From: an uncultured Pelagibacteraceae bacterium
Lineage (GTDB): Bacteria > Pseudomonadota > Alphaproteobacteria > Pelagibacterales > Pelagibacteraceae
Length of the DNA stretch: 64,000 bases
Direction of reading: 5' to 3'
NCBI GenBank assembly: GCA_902519375.1
Contig: CABYJS010000001.1
Location: 34,240 to 98,239 of the forward strand
Shown piece after piece: positions 46,813 through 53,699 of the stretch (positions are counted from its first letter, which is position 1; each line of letters starts with the position of its first letter). The notes under the pieces are model-generated. The model was not told where the DNA came from, did not search any database, and was given only the letters and a program-made list of their open reading frames with translations. Position numbers and translations under genes: made by a program.

Positions 46813-47286
46813 TTAAATCAAATTAATTTGTTTTAAACTTTCTGCTAAAATAATAGATACTGAGGAAGCAATATTAAGTGACCGTTTATTATTTTTCATT
46901 GGTATCTTCAGCCTATTTTTAATCAACTTATGAATTTTATCTGGAACTCCAGCACTTTCTCTTCCAAATAAAATTGTATCATTTTTATCAAATTTGAAAG
47001 AAGTATAAGATACAGATGCTTTTGTAGTCATCAATATAATTCTACAACTCTTTTTTGACTCAAAAAAATGATCTGAGCTTTGATAAAATTTTATCTCCTT
47101 TTCATCCATATAATCCATTACAACTCTTTTAAATCTTTTATCACTTAGTAAAAAACCACATGGCTCAATAATTTCTAATTTTGCACCGAGGCAAGCACAA
47201 ATTCTAATTATAGCTGCGGTATTTTGAGGAATATCTGGTTCATAAAGAGCTATTCTAATACCTATGTCCTGTTTTTCGTTTTTCAT
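46813..47286 (-). CDS. trmL: tRNA (cytidine/uridine-2'-O-)-methyltransferase (SPOUT)
   Basis: IALYEPDIPQNTAAIIRICACLGAKLEIIEPCGF, LFGRESAGVPDKIH, RSLNIASSVSIILAE. Confidence 0.93.
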   Translation of the reverse strand: MKNEKQDIGIRIALYEPDIPQNTAAIIRICACLGAKLEIIEPCGFLLSDKRFKRVVMDYMDEKEIKFYQSSDHFFESKKSCRIILMTTKASVSYTSFKFDKNDTILFGRESAGVPDKIHKLIKNRLKIPMKNNKRSLNIASSVSIILAESLKQINLI

Positions 47287-47307
47287 GAGAATAATATAAA
47301 TATAAAT

Positions 47308-47337
47308 TTGACTGTGGTAAAATAATTATAATAAAAT
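47308..47337 (+). promoter_or_regulatory. Candidate sigma70-type promoter upstream of the TPR/barrel gene
   Basis: TTGACT (47308-47313), 18-nt spacer, TAAAAT (47332-47337); start codon at 47352. Confidence 0.3.
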
Positions 47338-47351
47338 AGTTAGCAGTTTAA

Positions 47352-49382
47352 ATGACTAAGACACAAAAAAAAAATCGAAATTTATATGCAATTTTAGTAT
47401 TAATCTTTGTCTTAATAGCTTTAATATCATTTTCATTTAAGAATATAAAAGTTGGATCAAAAAACTATTCAAAAGATTCAATTAAATTTTCAAAATTATT
47501 TTACGAGGATGAATATTCAAGGTTATTATTTAATTTTAATCAAGTTAATCAAAAAGTAAAAGTTGAAGACAAAAAATTTGATGGTTTTAAAAAAGACCTA
47601 AGCAAAAGAGAAAGCTTACTTTTAAAAATGGTAGACTCATTTTTTACTATCAAAAAAAAAGTTAAAAAAGAGGAAAGAAAAATTAAAAGTGATGAAGCAA
47701 CAACTAAGAAACAAATTTTACAAAATCCTAAAGATATTAAATTAGTTTATAAATATGTGAGAGAACAATTTAAATCGGGTAATATAGATGAAGGTATATT
47801 TGCAATTAAAAGTTTAAGTGAAATTTATCCAAATAATATTAAAATAAAGTTAGATTTACTTGCAATTTACAATCAAGCAAAATTAAATGAAGAAGCCTTA
47901 GGTTTGATTGAAGATATTAAAAAAAATTCAAATTCTACAGAAGAGAATATTAAATTTGTCTCTAAAATTGAGCAGTCAATAAATGATAATTTGAATAATA
48001 AAAATTTACTGTCTCATATGACAAATCTTTTTACTCATCAGACAAAATCTAAACCAACTCTTCTTTCAAATATGCAAGAAATTAGCAAGCTCTCAGAGGA
48101 CATACTTAAAAAAAAAAGTATTAAAAATGAATATGTTGCAAAAAAAAATGTTACTTGGAGTCAAATTCTTCAAAATCCCAAAGATCTCAAACTGAATTAT
48201 CAATTTGCTAGACAACAGTTTAAAGCCGGACATATCAATGAAGGTATATCTTCAATTAAAAGGATGAGTAAAGTTTATCCTGATAATGTTAAAATTAAAT
48301 TAGATTTACTTAACCTTTATAAAAATGCTGGAATGAGAGATGAAGCATTAGTTTTAATTGATGAAATTAAGCAAAATAAAAATACAACAGATGAACAATT
48401 ATCATATGTAAATCAAATCGAATCTTCATTTAATTTTATTCATAATGAACCAAAAGCAGAACCAAAAAAGTGGATGGTGTCTGCCTCATTGTCTTATGGA
48501 TATAATCAAGACAACAATGTCAGTGGAGTTACAAAAAAAAATTTACAAGTAAGCAGCAATGAAATAGTTGCTTTTGCAGATCCAAGATTTGATAATACTA
48601 CTACAAAAAGTGTAGGTCTAACTGCCTTTAAGTTTTTTGGTGAAAAGTCATCTATTATGATGAATGTAAACTCAGGACAGTCTGATCAAGACCAAGGAAC
48701 AGGGGATTATGATAATTATGGAGCTGTTTTTTCTTTAGATACTTATTTGGGTGGATTAAATCTGTCTCCATATTTGATGTTAAGTAAGTATGAAAATAAA
48801 TCTAGTGCTGAAATGTTGTCATATCTTGTTGGTGTAAATGGTTCTTTTACTAAGGGAGATCGTCATAAATTTAGTTATGGATATTCTTTAGGTGATACTA
48901 AATATGATCAAAATACCAGTTACACCTCAAAAGGAGATTATAATTCTACAACAGATAGTTTTTCTTTAGGATATGATTTTTATAAAAGTGATAAAGTTTC
49001 ATTCACTGCAGGTCTATCTTACTCTGATTCTGACGTAGTAGTAGATGCAGGAAATGATTACGAGTCTTATGCCACTGATCTGAGAGTAAATTTTTCTCAT
49101 CCATGGGCTTATTTTTCTTTTGGTGATAGTATAACATTCACAGATTACAAAGACGCTGACACTTCTTTCAGCGCCAGCCAAAGATCTGACGCCGTAAATA
49201 CTTTTGATTTTTCAATTAGTAAAGCTTTGGGAGATCTTGTTGCTTTTCTTGATCCCAATAAAAATTTGGTGATTAATTTTGCTTTTGAAAAAACATTTTC
49301 AGAGTCAAATATAATTAATTATGATTATATCTCTGACGCATTTTCATTCAGCATTTCAAAGTCCATAAATTTGAGGAATTAA
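47352..49382 (+). CDS. TPR plus C-terminal beta-barrel-like envelope protein (Slam/DUF560-like architecture)
   Basis: N-terminal TM; two homologous TPR-like modules beginning ILQNPKD; C-terminal ~300 aa of alternating amphipathic strands (SASLSYGYNQDNNVSG... DAFSFSISKSINLRN). Confidence 0.65.
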   Translation: MTKTQKKNRNLYAILVLIFVLIALISFSFKNIKVGSKNYSKDSIKFSKLFYEDEYSRLLFNFNQVNQKVKVEDKKFDGFKKDLSKRESLLLKMVDSFFTIKKKVKKEERKIKSDEATTKKQILQNPKDIKLVYKYVREQFKSGNIDEGIFAIKSLSEIYPNNIKIKLDLLAIYNQAKLNEEALGLIEDIKKNSNSTEENIKFVSKIEQSINDNLNNKNLLSHMTNLFTHQTKSKPTLLSNMQEISKLSEDILKKKSIKNEYVAKKNVTWSQILQNPKDLKLNYQFARQQFKAGHINEGISSIKRMSKVYPDNVKIKLDLLNLYKNAGMRDEALVLIDEIKQNKNTTDEQLSYVNQIESSFNFIHNEPKAEPKKWMVSASLSYGYNQDNNVSGVTKKNLQVSSNEIVAFADPRFDNTTTKSVGLTAFKFFGEKSSIMMNVNSGQSDQDQGTGDYDNYGAVFSLDTYLGGLNLSPYLMLSKYENKSSAEMLSYLVGVNGSFTKGDRHKFSYGYSLGDTKYDQNTSYTSKGDYNSTTDSFSLGYDFYKSDKVSFTAGLSYSDSDVVVDAGNDYESYATDLRVNFSHPWAYFSFGDSITFTDYKDADTSFSASQRSDAVNTFDFSISKALGDLVAFLDPNKNLVINFAFEKTFSESNIINYDYISDAFSFSISKSINLRN

Positions 49383-49487
49383 ATCATTAAAAACTTTTTT
49401 CTATTCCTAGTTGAAAAATTAGGAAAATAAAAAAATCCCACTTTGAGCATATATTTTTTTTTCAAAATATGCATAGTTTAAAAAATT

Positions 49488-51719
49488 ATGAAATATTTTA
49501 CTTCTCTTATTTTTAGTTTATTTTTTTTAATAGGCACAAGTGTCAAAGCTTTCGAAATGCCAAATCTTCATGGAGATGTGGGGGTAGGTGCTGATGCAAG
49601 TACAAGCTCTTCTACTCAAGTAGGTGATCAAACAATGACTTCAGAAGCATCGGCTTCTACAAGTGCAGAAGCTTCAGTAGGAGCTGAAGTTACAGACACA
49701 AGTGTTTCAGCAGAAGCAGGAGCATCAGTTGGCGCTGAAGCAGGAGCAAGTACAACTGTTGGAGGAGTAACTGCCGAAGCAGGAGCATCAGTTGGCGCTG
49801 AAGCAGGAGCATCAGCAGGAGCTGAAGTTACAAACACAGCAGTGACAGCAGAAGGAAGTGTTGGAGCATCAGTTAGTGCAGAAGCATCAGCGGGAGTTTC
49901 AGGAAGTTTAGATAGCAATACAGATGCGAGTGCAACTGGAGGAGTTTCCGCAACAGCAGGCGCAGGAGCAGAAACGTCAGGTTTTGTAGGTTTAGATGAT
50001 GGTAGAGCGGGTGCTGAAGGAGGAGCAGAGGCATACGCAGGAGCAGCAGTTGAAGCAACAGGTGAAGCAGGAGTTGACGGAAAATATGGTGGAGCTACTG
50101 TTGGTAGTGGTGCTTCAATAGGAACTTCAGTTGGAGGAGAAATTGGCGGGGGAGCTTCAGTTGGAACAGATGGTGTCGTATCAGCAGAAGTAGACATTGG
50201 TGCAAGACTGGGTATTGGTGCAGAGGTTTCCCTTGCAGTTGAAGTAGATACTTTTGCAATCGCTCAAGATGTTTATAAAGCAAAACCAATTGAAGGCACT
50301 CTTCAAGCTGCAGGACAAGTTACAACATCTAAAGAAGCTAAGTTAGTTAGAAGTGCAATAGATGATCAAGCAAAAAAATTAGGAGTAAAAAAGGAAATAG
50401 ATGCTGTTGGTAATGTTGTTAACGCAGCAGCCAAAGGAAAAATTCAAGAAAAATTAAAAGTTAGAGAAACCAAAAAGAAAGCAGCTAAAGCTGTAACCAA
50501 AGGTTTTAACCAAGGTAAAAAAACAGGAAAGAAAGCTGTTAAAGAAACTAAAAAAACGATTAAAGCATTAAAAAAAGGGAAGATACAAAAAAAAGCAATT
50601 TCCCAAGCAACTAATGTAGCTAGTCAAACAGTAAGATTAGCAAGTTTGAATGTCCCAGCATCTGCAATTAGTAATAAAGTTAATGCTCAAGCAGCCGCAG
50701 ACGCTGCAAAAAAAGCTGCAGGAGCAGTTCAAAAGAAAGCAGAACAAACAGCAGCAGCTGCAAAAAAAGCTGCAGAAGAAACTTCAAAGAGAGCAACAGA
50801 AGCTGCTAAACAAGTTGCTGTAGAAGCAAAAATAAAAGCAAAGAAAGCAGCACAGAAAGCAGCTAGACAAGCAAAAAAGAAAGCAGAACAAGCAGCCGCA
50901 GCAGCAAAACAAAAAGCAGAACAACAAGCTTTAGCAGCTAAGAAGAAAGCAGAAGCCGCAGCAGCTGCTTCAAAGAAAGCAGCTGAAGAACAAGCACGTA
51001 AAGCAAAAAAAGCTGCTCAAGCAGCTAAAAGAAAAGCGGAGGCAGCAGCAAAAAGAGCATCAGAGGAAGCACGTAAGAAAGCTGAAGCAGCAGCAGCCGC
51101 AGCTAAAAAGAAAGCAGAACAAGCAGCCGCAGCAGCTAAAAAGAAAGCAGAGCAAGCAGCAGCAGAAGCTAAGAAGAAAGCAGAGCAAGCAGCCTTAGCA
51201 GCTAAAAAGAAAGCTGAAGCAGCAGCAGCCGCAGCTAAAAAGAAAGCAGAGCAAGCAGCAGCTGAAGCAAGAAGAAGAGCAGAGGAAGCAGCAGCAGAAC
51301 AAAGAAGAAAAGCTGAGCAAGCGGCAGCTGAAGCAAGAAGAAGAGCAGAACAACAAGCAGCTGAAGCAAGAAGAAGAGCAGAGGCAGCAGCAGCTGAATC
51401 AAGAAGAAGAGCAGAACAAGCAGCAGCTGAAGCAAGAAGAAGAGCACAGCAAGCTGCAAATGATGCAGCTAGGAAAGCAAAAAAAACTGGAAAGAAAGTC
51501 AAAAAATTCTTTTCTGATATAAGATTAAAAACAAATATAGAGAATGTTGGTAAATCAGCCTCAGGTATAAATATTTATAAATTTAATTATATTGGAAGCT
51601 CAGTTGGTTATGTTGGTGTAATGGCTCAGGAGGTTCTTTGGGCTACAGAAATGCACTCAAGTGGATATTTAATGGTTGATTATAGTAAACTTGATGTTGA
51701 TTTTAAAAGATTTAACTAA
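49488..51719 (+). CDS. Secreted Ala-rich fibre-like protein with hendecad helical repeats and C-terminal S74-type intramolecular chaperone domain
   Basis: Signal peptide MKYFTSLIFSLFFLIGTSVKAF; AEAGASVGAEAGAS repeats; (K/R)(K/R)(K/R)AEQAAAEA repeats; C-terminus FSDIRLKTNIENVG...IYKFNYI...YVGVMAQEV resembles S74 domains of tail fibres/endosialidases. Confidence 0.75.
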   Translation: MKYFTSLIFSLFFLIGTSVKAFEMPNLHGDVGVGADASTSSSTQVGDQTMTSEASASTSAEASVGAEVTDTSVSAEAGASVGAEAGASTTVGGVTAEAGASVGAEAGASAGAEVTNTAVTAEGSVGASVSAEASAGVSGSLDSNTDASATGGVSATAGAGAETSGFVGLDDGRAGAEGGAEAYAGAAVEATGEAGVDGKYGGATVGSGASIGTSVGGEIGGGASVGTDGVVSAEVDIGARLGIGAEVSLAVEVDTFAIAQDVYKAKPIEGTLQAAGQVTTSKEAKLVRSAIDDQAKKLGVKKEIDAVGNVVNAAAKGKIQEKLKVRETKKKAAKAVTKGFNQGKKTGKKAVKETKKTIKALKKGKIQKKAISQATNVASQTVRLASLNVPASAISNKVNAQAAADAAKKAAGAVQKKAEQTAAAAKKAAEETSKRATEAAKQVAVEAKIKAKKAAQKAARQAKKKAEQAAAAAKQKAEQQALAAKKKAEAAAAASKKAAEEQARKAKKAAQAAKRKAEAAAKRASEEARKKAEAAAAAAKKKAEQAAAAAKKKAEQAAAEAKKKAEQAALAAKKKAEAAAAAAKKKAEQAAAEARRRAEEAAAEQRRKAEQAAAEARRRAEQQAAEARRRAEAAAAESRRRAEQAAAEARRRAQQAANDAARKAKKTGKKVKKFFSDIRLKTNIENVGKSASGINIYKFNYIGSSVGYVGVMAQEVLWATEMHSSGYLMVDYSKLDVDFKRFN
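49713..49811. repeat. Exact 36-bp direct repeat, period 63 bp, inside the Ala-rich gene
   Basis: gaagcaggagcatcagttggcgctgaagcaggagca at 49713-49748 and 49776-49811. Confidence 0.9.
51072..51467. repeat. 12 imperfect tandem 33-bp units encoding 11-residue (hendecad) repeats
   Basis: RKKAEAAAAAA|KKKAEQAAAAA|KKKAEQAAAEA|KKKAEQAALAA|KKKAEAAAAAA|KKKAEQAAAEA|RRRAEEAAAEQ|RRKAEQAAAEA|RRRAEQQAAEA|RRRAEAAAAES|RRRAEQAAAEA|RRRAQQAANDA. Confidence 0.9.
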
Positions 51720-51739
51720 CTCAAATTTATTTTAGATAG

Positions 51740-52981
51740 GTGAAAAAAACATTATTTTTTTTAGTTTTTTTATCGACTTTTATATTTTCAAAATCTTTCG
51801 CAATAGAAGTCTCAATGTTAGAGGCAGAAAAAAGAATTATCTTCCATCAATTATTTTCAAAACAAACCTGTGGTAAAATTTATGAACAAATTGAATTTGG
51901 AGCCAAAAAAAAATTAAAAGAAGAAGTTCTTCTTAAAGCTTATCATAATATAAAAAGAATAAATATTGATGAGGAAAAAGCAATATTATCAATTGCAATT
52001 GATCAAAGAACTTTTTCTTACAAGGAACCTGGTCTAGAAAGAGTAATATTTAAAGTTTTAGCTGAACAAGATTTTTCTGAGGAGTTAGCGGTCATTAATG
52101 AGACAGTTGCAATATCAAAATCTAAAAAAATTGTAGTTTGTGAATATGATTTAAATTCTGGATTAGAAGATGGAAAATTTTTTAATTTTTTCATGAGTTA
52201 TGATAATCATTTAAAAGTTCAGAGTAATGCAGAACCGCAAGTACTTATTTATTACGATGGCACGGTAGAATATGCCTATTACGATGAACAAGTAGAATAT
52301 GCTATTCCAGAATTTAATTATAGAATGTACCCTTTTGATAATCATGAGTTGAGATTTAATATTTCATCAGAAATTTATGATAAATTATTTATTGAAAGAT
52401 CTGATCAGTTTAAAGTCCTTCTAAATGAAACTAAAGATAATGATTATAATAATATTTCTTTTCCAGGTTGGAAAATTGCAAGATACATATCATTTCCAAT
52501 GTCAGAACCTTTAGTCGATGTTTATTCAGATTATTCTAAACACTCAATAGTTTCAGAATTTTACTTTCAACGAAATTGGGCTTCATATTTATTTAAGTTA
52601 ATTATGCCAATTATTGGTATTACCTTTTTGACATATGCGGCTGTATTTATGCGATTAATGGATGGTAGAATTGTAACATTGTGTTCTCTATTATTTACCT
52701 TCGTTGCATTCGACTTTGTATCTTTGGGTCAAACTCCTGAGCTTCAATATATTACTTTGTTAGATTGGCTGATATTTTTAGGTTATACGTTTAATATAAT
52801 TACAATATTATTTTCAATATCAGAGTCATATTTTTTACGTCAAAGAACAAGTGCAAAAGCATCCGATCTTGGGGATGTTGACAGAGTCTATTTAAATAGA
52901 ATAAGGTTTTATTATAAAACAGTAATGCCAGTGACTTATGTTGTCACATTTTTTATGGGTTATTACTTTATGCTGATTTAG
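51740..52981 (+). CDS. Pentameric ligand-gated ion channel (Cys-loop superfamily, prokaryotic) homologue; GTG start
   Basis: Signal peptide; extracellular 'EPQVLIYYDGTVEYAYYDEQVEYAIPEFNYRMYPFDNHELRF' matches the Pro-loop region of pLGICs (GLIC ...SPDGTVQYLERFSARVLSPLDFRRYPFDSQTL); four TM helices with M1-M3 pattern RNWASYLFKLIMPIIGITFLTYAAVF / GRIVTLCSLLFTFVAFDFVSLGQTPELQYITLLDWLIFLGYTFN. Confidence 0.82.
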   Translation: MKKTLFFLVFLSTFIFSKSFAIEVSMLEAEKRIIFHQLFSKQTCGKIYEQIEFGAKKKLKEEVLLKAYHNIKRINIDEEKAILSIAIDQRTFSYKEPGLERVIFKVLAEQDFSEELAVINETVAISKSKKIVVCEYDLNSGLEDGKFFNFFMSYDNHLKVQSNAEPQVLIYYDGTVEYAYYDEQVEYAIPEFNYRMYPFDNHELRFNISSEIYDKLFIERSDQFKVLLNETKDNDYNNISFPGWKIARYISFPMSEPLVDVYSDYSKHSIVSEFYFQRNWASYLFKLIMPIIGITFLTYAAVFMRLMDGRIVTLCSLLFTFVAFDFVSLGQTPELQYITLLDWLIFLGYTFNIITILFSISESYFLRQRTSAKASDLGDVDRVYLNRIRFYYKTVMPVTYVVTFFMGYYFMLI

Positions 52982-53189
52982 TCTTATCAATTATTGCAAT
53001 CAAGCCAAATAATATCAAGATTCGCATGAAAGCTTTATTATTAAAGATTACTCATTTTAGTGTGCTGAAGTCGCTTAAAACCTTACTATGTAAGTTAAAT
53101 ATCCTTATTATGTGTCATTCTTACAGTAGAAATTATTCTTTTTTATACTATATGAATTCGTATATTAGGAACCAAATACTATATTTTTG

Positions 53190-53699
53190 ATGTCAGAAAA
53201 AAAAACTAAAAGAAGAGATTTTCTATTTACTGCCACTTATGCAGTCGGAGCTGTGGGTGTAGGAGCTACCGTTTGGCCAATGATTGACCAAATGAACCCA
53301 GATGCTTCAGTCAAAGCTTTAGCTAGCACAGAAGTAGATGTCAGCTCATTAACTCCAGGAAAAACAATTACAGTTCTTTGGAGAGGTAAACCAGTTTTTA
53401 TTAGAAGAAGAACTCAAGAGGAAATCTCAGATGCTAAATCAGTTAAAATGGAGGATTTAAAACATCCTGAAAAAGATGAAGATCGAGCAAAGAATCCAGA
53501 ATGGTTAGTGATGCTCGGTGTTTGTACTCATCTAGGGTGTGTCCCTCTTAATGATAAAGGAGATTATAATGGCTGGTTCTGCCCATGTCATGGCTCACAT
53601 TATGACACTTCAGGAAGAATTAGAAAAGGTCCAGCCCCAACTAATATGGAAGTTCCGAAATACGAATTTGTTAATGCTAATACAATTAAAATTGGATAA
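53190..53699 (+). CDS. petA: Ubiquinol-cytochrome c reductase Rieske iron-sulfur subunit
   Basis: TAT-like [54 protein letters not shown] at 53190 preferred over TTG 53187. Confidence 0.98.

Follow-up and report, generated by a model that had tools for sequence, protein, structure and literature searches.

A gene for a predicted exported stalk protein with a short S74 domain, related to phage proteins, in an accessory module of SAR11 bacteria

A three-gene insert at the trmL-petA site

SAR11 are among the most abundant bacteria in the ocean, and to our knowledge few surface appendages have been described in them. The window analysed here, 64,000 nucleotides from an uncultured Pelagibacteraceae bacterium, carries a 5.9-kb insert of three genes between trmL and petA (Table 1). 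They encode a TPR protein with a predicted barrel, a stalk protein that ends in an S74 domain, and a GLIC-like channel. None of the 29 sampled relatives carries an insert at this site: their trmL and petA are separated by tens of bases to about 100 bases and, wherever the contig is long enough, the gene order is hemF-trmL-petA-petB. The first-pass annotation treated the middle gene singly and overlooked that it belongs to a mobile module with an outer-membrane-type TPR-barrel protein. Its remark that no phage genes lie nearby holds for the flanks (hemF, trmL and petABC), but the closest relatives of the S74 domain outside SAR11 are phage proteins.

Table 1. Features of the insert and its flanks (positions within the window; residues are those of the stalk-S74 protein)
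Feature	Position	Strand	Basis or remark
trmL	46813-47286	-	flank of insert
Insert between trmL and petA	47287..53186	.	trmL and petA adjacent in 29/29 relatives and in AG-914-M14
TPR and predicted 14-strand beta-barrel protein (first module gene)	47352..49382	+	TPR_19; AlphaFold model; homologues
Stalk-S74 gene	49488..51719	+	743 aa, ATG start; ORF, S74 profile match, SAR11 homologues, dN/dS
Predicted signal peptide, residues 1-21 (cut between VKA and FE)	49488..49550	+	sequence; hydrophobic leaders in AG-892-C18 and AG-914-M14
Gly/Ala/Ser-rich N-terminal region, residues 22-270	49551..50297	+	jumbo-phage homology beyond composition; SAR11 homologues
Lys-rich linker, residues 271-395	50298..50672	+	sequence, alignment
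Ala-rich hendecad stalk, residues 396-672	50673..51503	+	period 11 / 3.667; consensus AKKKAEQAAAA
Short S74 chaperone-type domain, residues 676-743	51513..51716	+	PF13884, phrog_6121, 3gud, viral fold library
SDIRLK, predicted Ser676/Lys681 self-cleavage pair	51513..51530	+	S, D and K invariant in 28 short S74 domains
Pentameric ligand-gated channel-like protein (third module gene)	51740..52981	+	GLIC; same neighbour in L119 and L120
petA	53187-53699	+	flank of insert

The AlphaFold model of the TPR-barrel protein contains 14 strands at a moderate mean pLDDT of 71.6 and matches an OmpG-like barrel. In two other SAR11 genomes, AG-892-C18 and AG-914-M14, the stalk gene is preceded by a homologue. 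The barrel of Slam also has 14 strands and, as in T11SS/Slam and in BcsC/PgaA, the modelled arrangement is TPR followed by an outer-membrane barrel. The protein differs from these systems in matching none of their families: Slam/DUF560 was not matched in Pfam at E <= 1 or in NCBIfam at E <= 0.1, and no Pfam or NCBIfam family above cut-off identified it as BcsC or PgaA. The stalk protein is, in addition, unlike known T11SS cargo (PMC12282271). Related SAR11 pair homologues of the TPR-barrel protein with other secreted, very basic proteins, which consist of a FecR domain and a long Lys-rich tail and are encoded beside and after them in accessory regions with pilins. Such pairs may represent an unrecognised export or anchoring system. 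A recurrent SAR11 cluster (L026-L037) combines TPR-barrel, FecR/Lys-rich secreted and CHASE2-SpoIIE proteins, often beside type IV pilin genes.

The product of the third gene matches GLIC structures over residues 168-383 (E 4e-10), which correspond to the C-terminal half of the ligand domain and the membrane part; its match to LGIC_1 (E 4e-10) lies below the cut-off. The channel has a long N-terminal extension, and its gene is found beside the stalk gene in three SAR11 genomes, after the S74 domain in AG-914-M14 and AG-892-C18.

The stalk protein and its terminal domain

The reading frame, signal peptide, Ala-rich stalk and C-terminal S74 domain that had been described for the middle gene were all recovered, and its product is predicted to be a cellular, exported protein. 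Sec-type cleavage is predicted after MKYFTSLIFSLFFLIGTSVKA, before FE. The leaders of both SAR11 homologues differ wholly or partly in sequence and are equally hydrophobic, and the N-terminal region shares 86-94% amino acid identity with these homologues. The stalk comprises 277 residues with an exact 11-residue repeat (power 27-33 at period 3.667, or 11/3, and at most 2.5 at nearby periods), and a DNA period of 33 runs through positions 51066-51458 of its coding part. It has 78 Lys/Arg against 34 Glu/Asp, a net charge of about +44. Judged by its sequence, the stalk is a helix built on 11-residue repeats, whereas a beta-helix stands before S74 in the cases that have been studied best.

A Pfam search, proposed in the first-pass annotation, matched PF13884 (Peptidase_S74) above its curated cut-off of 22 bits, with 26.6 bits for the whole protein and 29.9 bits (E 6.8e-7) for the C-terminal 73 aa; the match covers residues 676-716 and model positions 1-49 of 58. 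The last 73 aa also match phrog_6121 (virion structural protein, E 1.7e-14) and phrog_4287 (DNA ejection protein, E 2.9e-9). The domain sequence alone matched nothing in the PDB and a profile of the short-domain family was required; it reached 3gud (E 0.0012), a solved S74 domain from a phage neck appendage, with a chain that starts at the aligned Ser. Comparison with a viral fold library gave TM values of 0.65-0.77 to predicted phage chaperone domains; Foldseek matches of the monomer model in the PDB included no S74 structures. The S-D-x-R-x-K and GVMAQEV hallmarks reported earlier are present, the former as S676-D-I-R-L-K681, with the Ser and Lys that autocleavage would require. The S, D and K of SDxxxK are invariant in an alignment of 28 short S74 domains.

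The domain shares the Pfam match and the Ser/Asp/Lys motif with canonical S74 intramolecular chaperones (endosialidase and the phi29-type neck appendage 3gud), but it is about half their size and is not carried on a beta-helix or an enzyme. Longer S74 domains typically carry C-terminal helices; the short domain ends without them, in contrast to L131 and L138. No second S74 domain was found in the source genome (873 kb, ~75% complete). At 68 aa the domain is short and easily expressed, which suits it to the testing of minimal self-cleavage.

Relatives in marine phages

The domain had been remarked on as short, at about 70 aa. This form is not peculiar: related short S74 domains are encoded at 48 loci in IMG/VR and make up a widespread cassette of marine phages. 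The placing of S74 at the C-termini of phage tail spikes was too narrow, since the short form also ends otherwise unrelated virion proteins of the DNA-ejection type, the baseplate hub/tail lysozyme and other structural proteins. The best full-length match to the domain (L041, 70% identity) is encoded after a portal gene that has 79% identity to its counterpart in Pelagibacter phage HTVC033P. In HMO-2011-type pelagiphages, the gene that follows the portal has an S74 end in L041 and none in HTVC033P or HTVC103P (L158, L159). Because genes in the same place occur with and without it, short S74 behaves as an exchangeable C-terminal cassette. The short-S74 virion proteins (phrog_6121, phrog_4287; L041 and relatives) resemble the SAR11 protein in this domain, with up to 70% identity over its full length including the FFSDIRLKTNIE junction, but they have other N-terminal halves, a virion role and no signal peptide that we could see. 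The tree places the three SAR11 domains together in a single clade (98/97), nested in a group of such phage domains that has loose support (80/67).

Three proteins on large phage contigs have the whole layout of Gly/Ala-rich region, Ala-rich coil, KKFFSD junction and S74; a terminase was found in the 244-kb and 116-kb contigs that carry such jumbo-phage proteins. The N-terminal similarity has z scores of 7-11 over three kinds of shuffle, by which chance resemblance from Ala/Gly composition was rejected for this region. The coil alone gave z 5-6 against shuffles, a weaker and partly compositional signal. The N-terminal region used as a query found no viral relative, and the relationship surfaced only via the jumbo-phage proteins. 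These proteins (L151-L154) have their parts in the same order as the SAR11 protein, but they lack a signal peptide, are encoded beside a class 3 lipase and carry an S74 domain from another branch of the tree. Given the missing signal peptide and the different S74 branch, the SAR11 protein looks like a mosaic. The term 'non-phage', applied to it earlier, is correct only for where it is encoded: its domain resembles those of phages, and the three parts together match a protein of jumbo phages.

From these comparisons, bacteria and their viruses appear to share stalk-S74 protein parts. Transfer from phage to cell is favoured by the breadth of the domain in phages, but not proven. With stalk parts that match jumbo phages and pelagiphages in a mobile module, the gene offers a concrete case of the sharing of structural parts between a bacterium and phages. 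A class 3 lipase-like gene precedes the full-length stalk-S74 gene in the jumbo-phage contigs examined. An incomplete alphaproteobacterial ORF (L122:1492-2418, minus strand), from a host or a prophage, also combines a jumbo-phage-like Gly/Ala region, a coil and a short S74 domain.

Distribution and possible role in SAR11

A genome scan with one degenerate pattern, in which the carriers found are a lower bound, added two Pelagibacteraceae assemblies with the domain, AG-914-M14 (93% identical) and AG-892-C18 (89%), both of the SAR11 single-cell type. The N-terminal part is absent from all other genomes among the 121 in the genus. The contigs of both assemblies break within the repetitive stalk, and the other halves lie on separate contigs of the same genomes, after the TPR-barrel gene. 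The module of AG-892-C18 occupies the same trmL-petA site; in AG-914-M14 this site is empty and the module lies elsewhere, before an alternative oxidase gene. An assembly artefact or a decaying prophage was rejected for the stalk-S74 gene, and mis-binning is unlikely because core genes stand on both sides and two independent assemblies carry the gene. Two family-level 'SAR11' matches (L003/L039 and L004/L040) were set aside, as they look like phage contigs in bins and not cellular genes.

Between the SAR11 carriers the stalk gene has a dS of 0.24-0.34. Core dS is saturated (1.3-1.7 for petA and petB to AG-892-C18; 1.5 for petB to AG-914-M14), and the module neighbours of the stalk gene in AG-914-M14 (dS 1.0-1.2) are also more diverged than the stalk gene itself. 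Since its dS lies far below that of both the core and its module neighbours, the stalk gene moves between SAR11 lineages by recombination, partly alone. As its dN/dS of 0.12-0.31 indicates, the gene is under constraint, namely purifying selection.

We read the gene as encoding an exported envelope or surface stalk that is shared with phages and has spread as part of an accessory, horizontally exchanged SAR11 module, and we put the probability of this reading at roughly one half. After Sec export, the C-terminal S74 domain would fold first and gather three chains; the helical stalk, its chains joined by S74, would then zip up from the C-terminus, and S74 may cut itself off before Ser676. The resulting rod, ~40 nm long if fully helical, could be fixed in the outer membrane, or threaded through it, with the help of the neighbouring TPR-barrel protein. 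A likely use would be to alter the cell surface, for attachment or for masking or competition against phage. A more specific version appears improbable to us: that SAR11 took a complete phage stalk protein, added a signal peptide, swapped in the S74 of its own pelagiphages, and displays a self-maturing trimeric rod via the TPR-barrel protein as a new secretion partner, a mobile surface device that lineages would trade as they contend with phages.

The leading alternative, which we consider possible but clearly less probable than a stalk of the kind above, is a periplasmic structural rod like TolA, with S74 as an oligomerisation cap only and nothing at the surface. Domain II of TolA is a long Ala/Lys/Glu helix that the stalk resembles in composition, and the signal peptide, the strong net positive charge and a stalk protein without a demonstrated surface anchor all accord with such a rod, as would the periplasmic placement of the TPR domains in the modelled neighbour. 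However, TolA is anchored in the membrane by its N-terminus and lacks S74, and a role in assembly or adhesion agrees better with the full-length jumbo-phage homologues and the known bacterial S74 fibres. Accessory-island genes that differ between closely related strains tend to have surface functions, and the stalk gene lies in such a variable island.

Phage homology admits two other accounts. That the closest full-length match to the domain comes from a pelagiphage relative, and that the gene is rare and mobile between lineages and sites, like defence genes, would suit a cell protein that uses a virion-type S74 cassette, close to that of pelagiphages, to interfere with the adsorption or assembly of phages by blocking, competition or poisoning. 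We hold this to be doubtful, because the signal peptide would separate the protein from intracellular phage assembly and, in libraries other than padloc, neither a known defence system nor a toxin was recognised beside the gene. A functionless remnant of phage DNA in the chromosome would also account for the homology of the domain and of the full length, but it is very improbable: the gene is intact in three genomes (its stalk split over contigs in two) under the constraint described above, the signal peptide has been kept, the same neighbours recur at two sites, and the insert has no other phage genes.

Secreted S74 proteins are not a new class as such, since cellular S74 fibres are known and, of 398 sampled genomes of the phylum, 57 have S74 domains, prophage ones included. 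What is new is that the short domain sits on a hendecad stalk, that the protein is homologous to phage proteins along its entire length and that the SAR11 module is mobile. The closest precedent, the S74 subgroup of the mosaic adhesive trimer (MAT) proteins of Bdellovibrio bacteriovorus, combines a signal peptide, a fibre and a C-terminal S74 domain with SDxxxK, whose self-cleavage was shown and is lost in S782A; MATs also have a conserved, beta-rich domain of ~130 aa after the signal peptide and beta-helical tips (PMC10769870). The SAR11 protein is alike in being cellular, with a signal peptide and a C-terminal S74 domain with SDxxxK, but, compared with the description of MATs, it differs in its Gly/Ala-rich region and hendecad helix, and its S74 domain is shorter.

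Other fusions of S74 were seen in alphaproteobacteria. Two ORFs of ~120-130 aa (L126:1387-1740 and L125:1360-1749, both on the plus strand) join a lasso-peptide-type leader (YVRP...) to a short S74 domain; in L126 the lasso_leader_L3 match falls just under the cut-off, and an asparagine-synthase/lasso-cyclase-like gene adjoins. In a third ORF (L131:424-1812, plus strand), a type IV prepilin N-terminus (N_methyl, GFxxxE type) is fused to S74.
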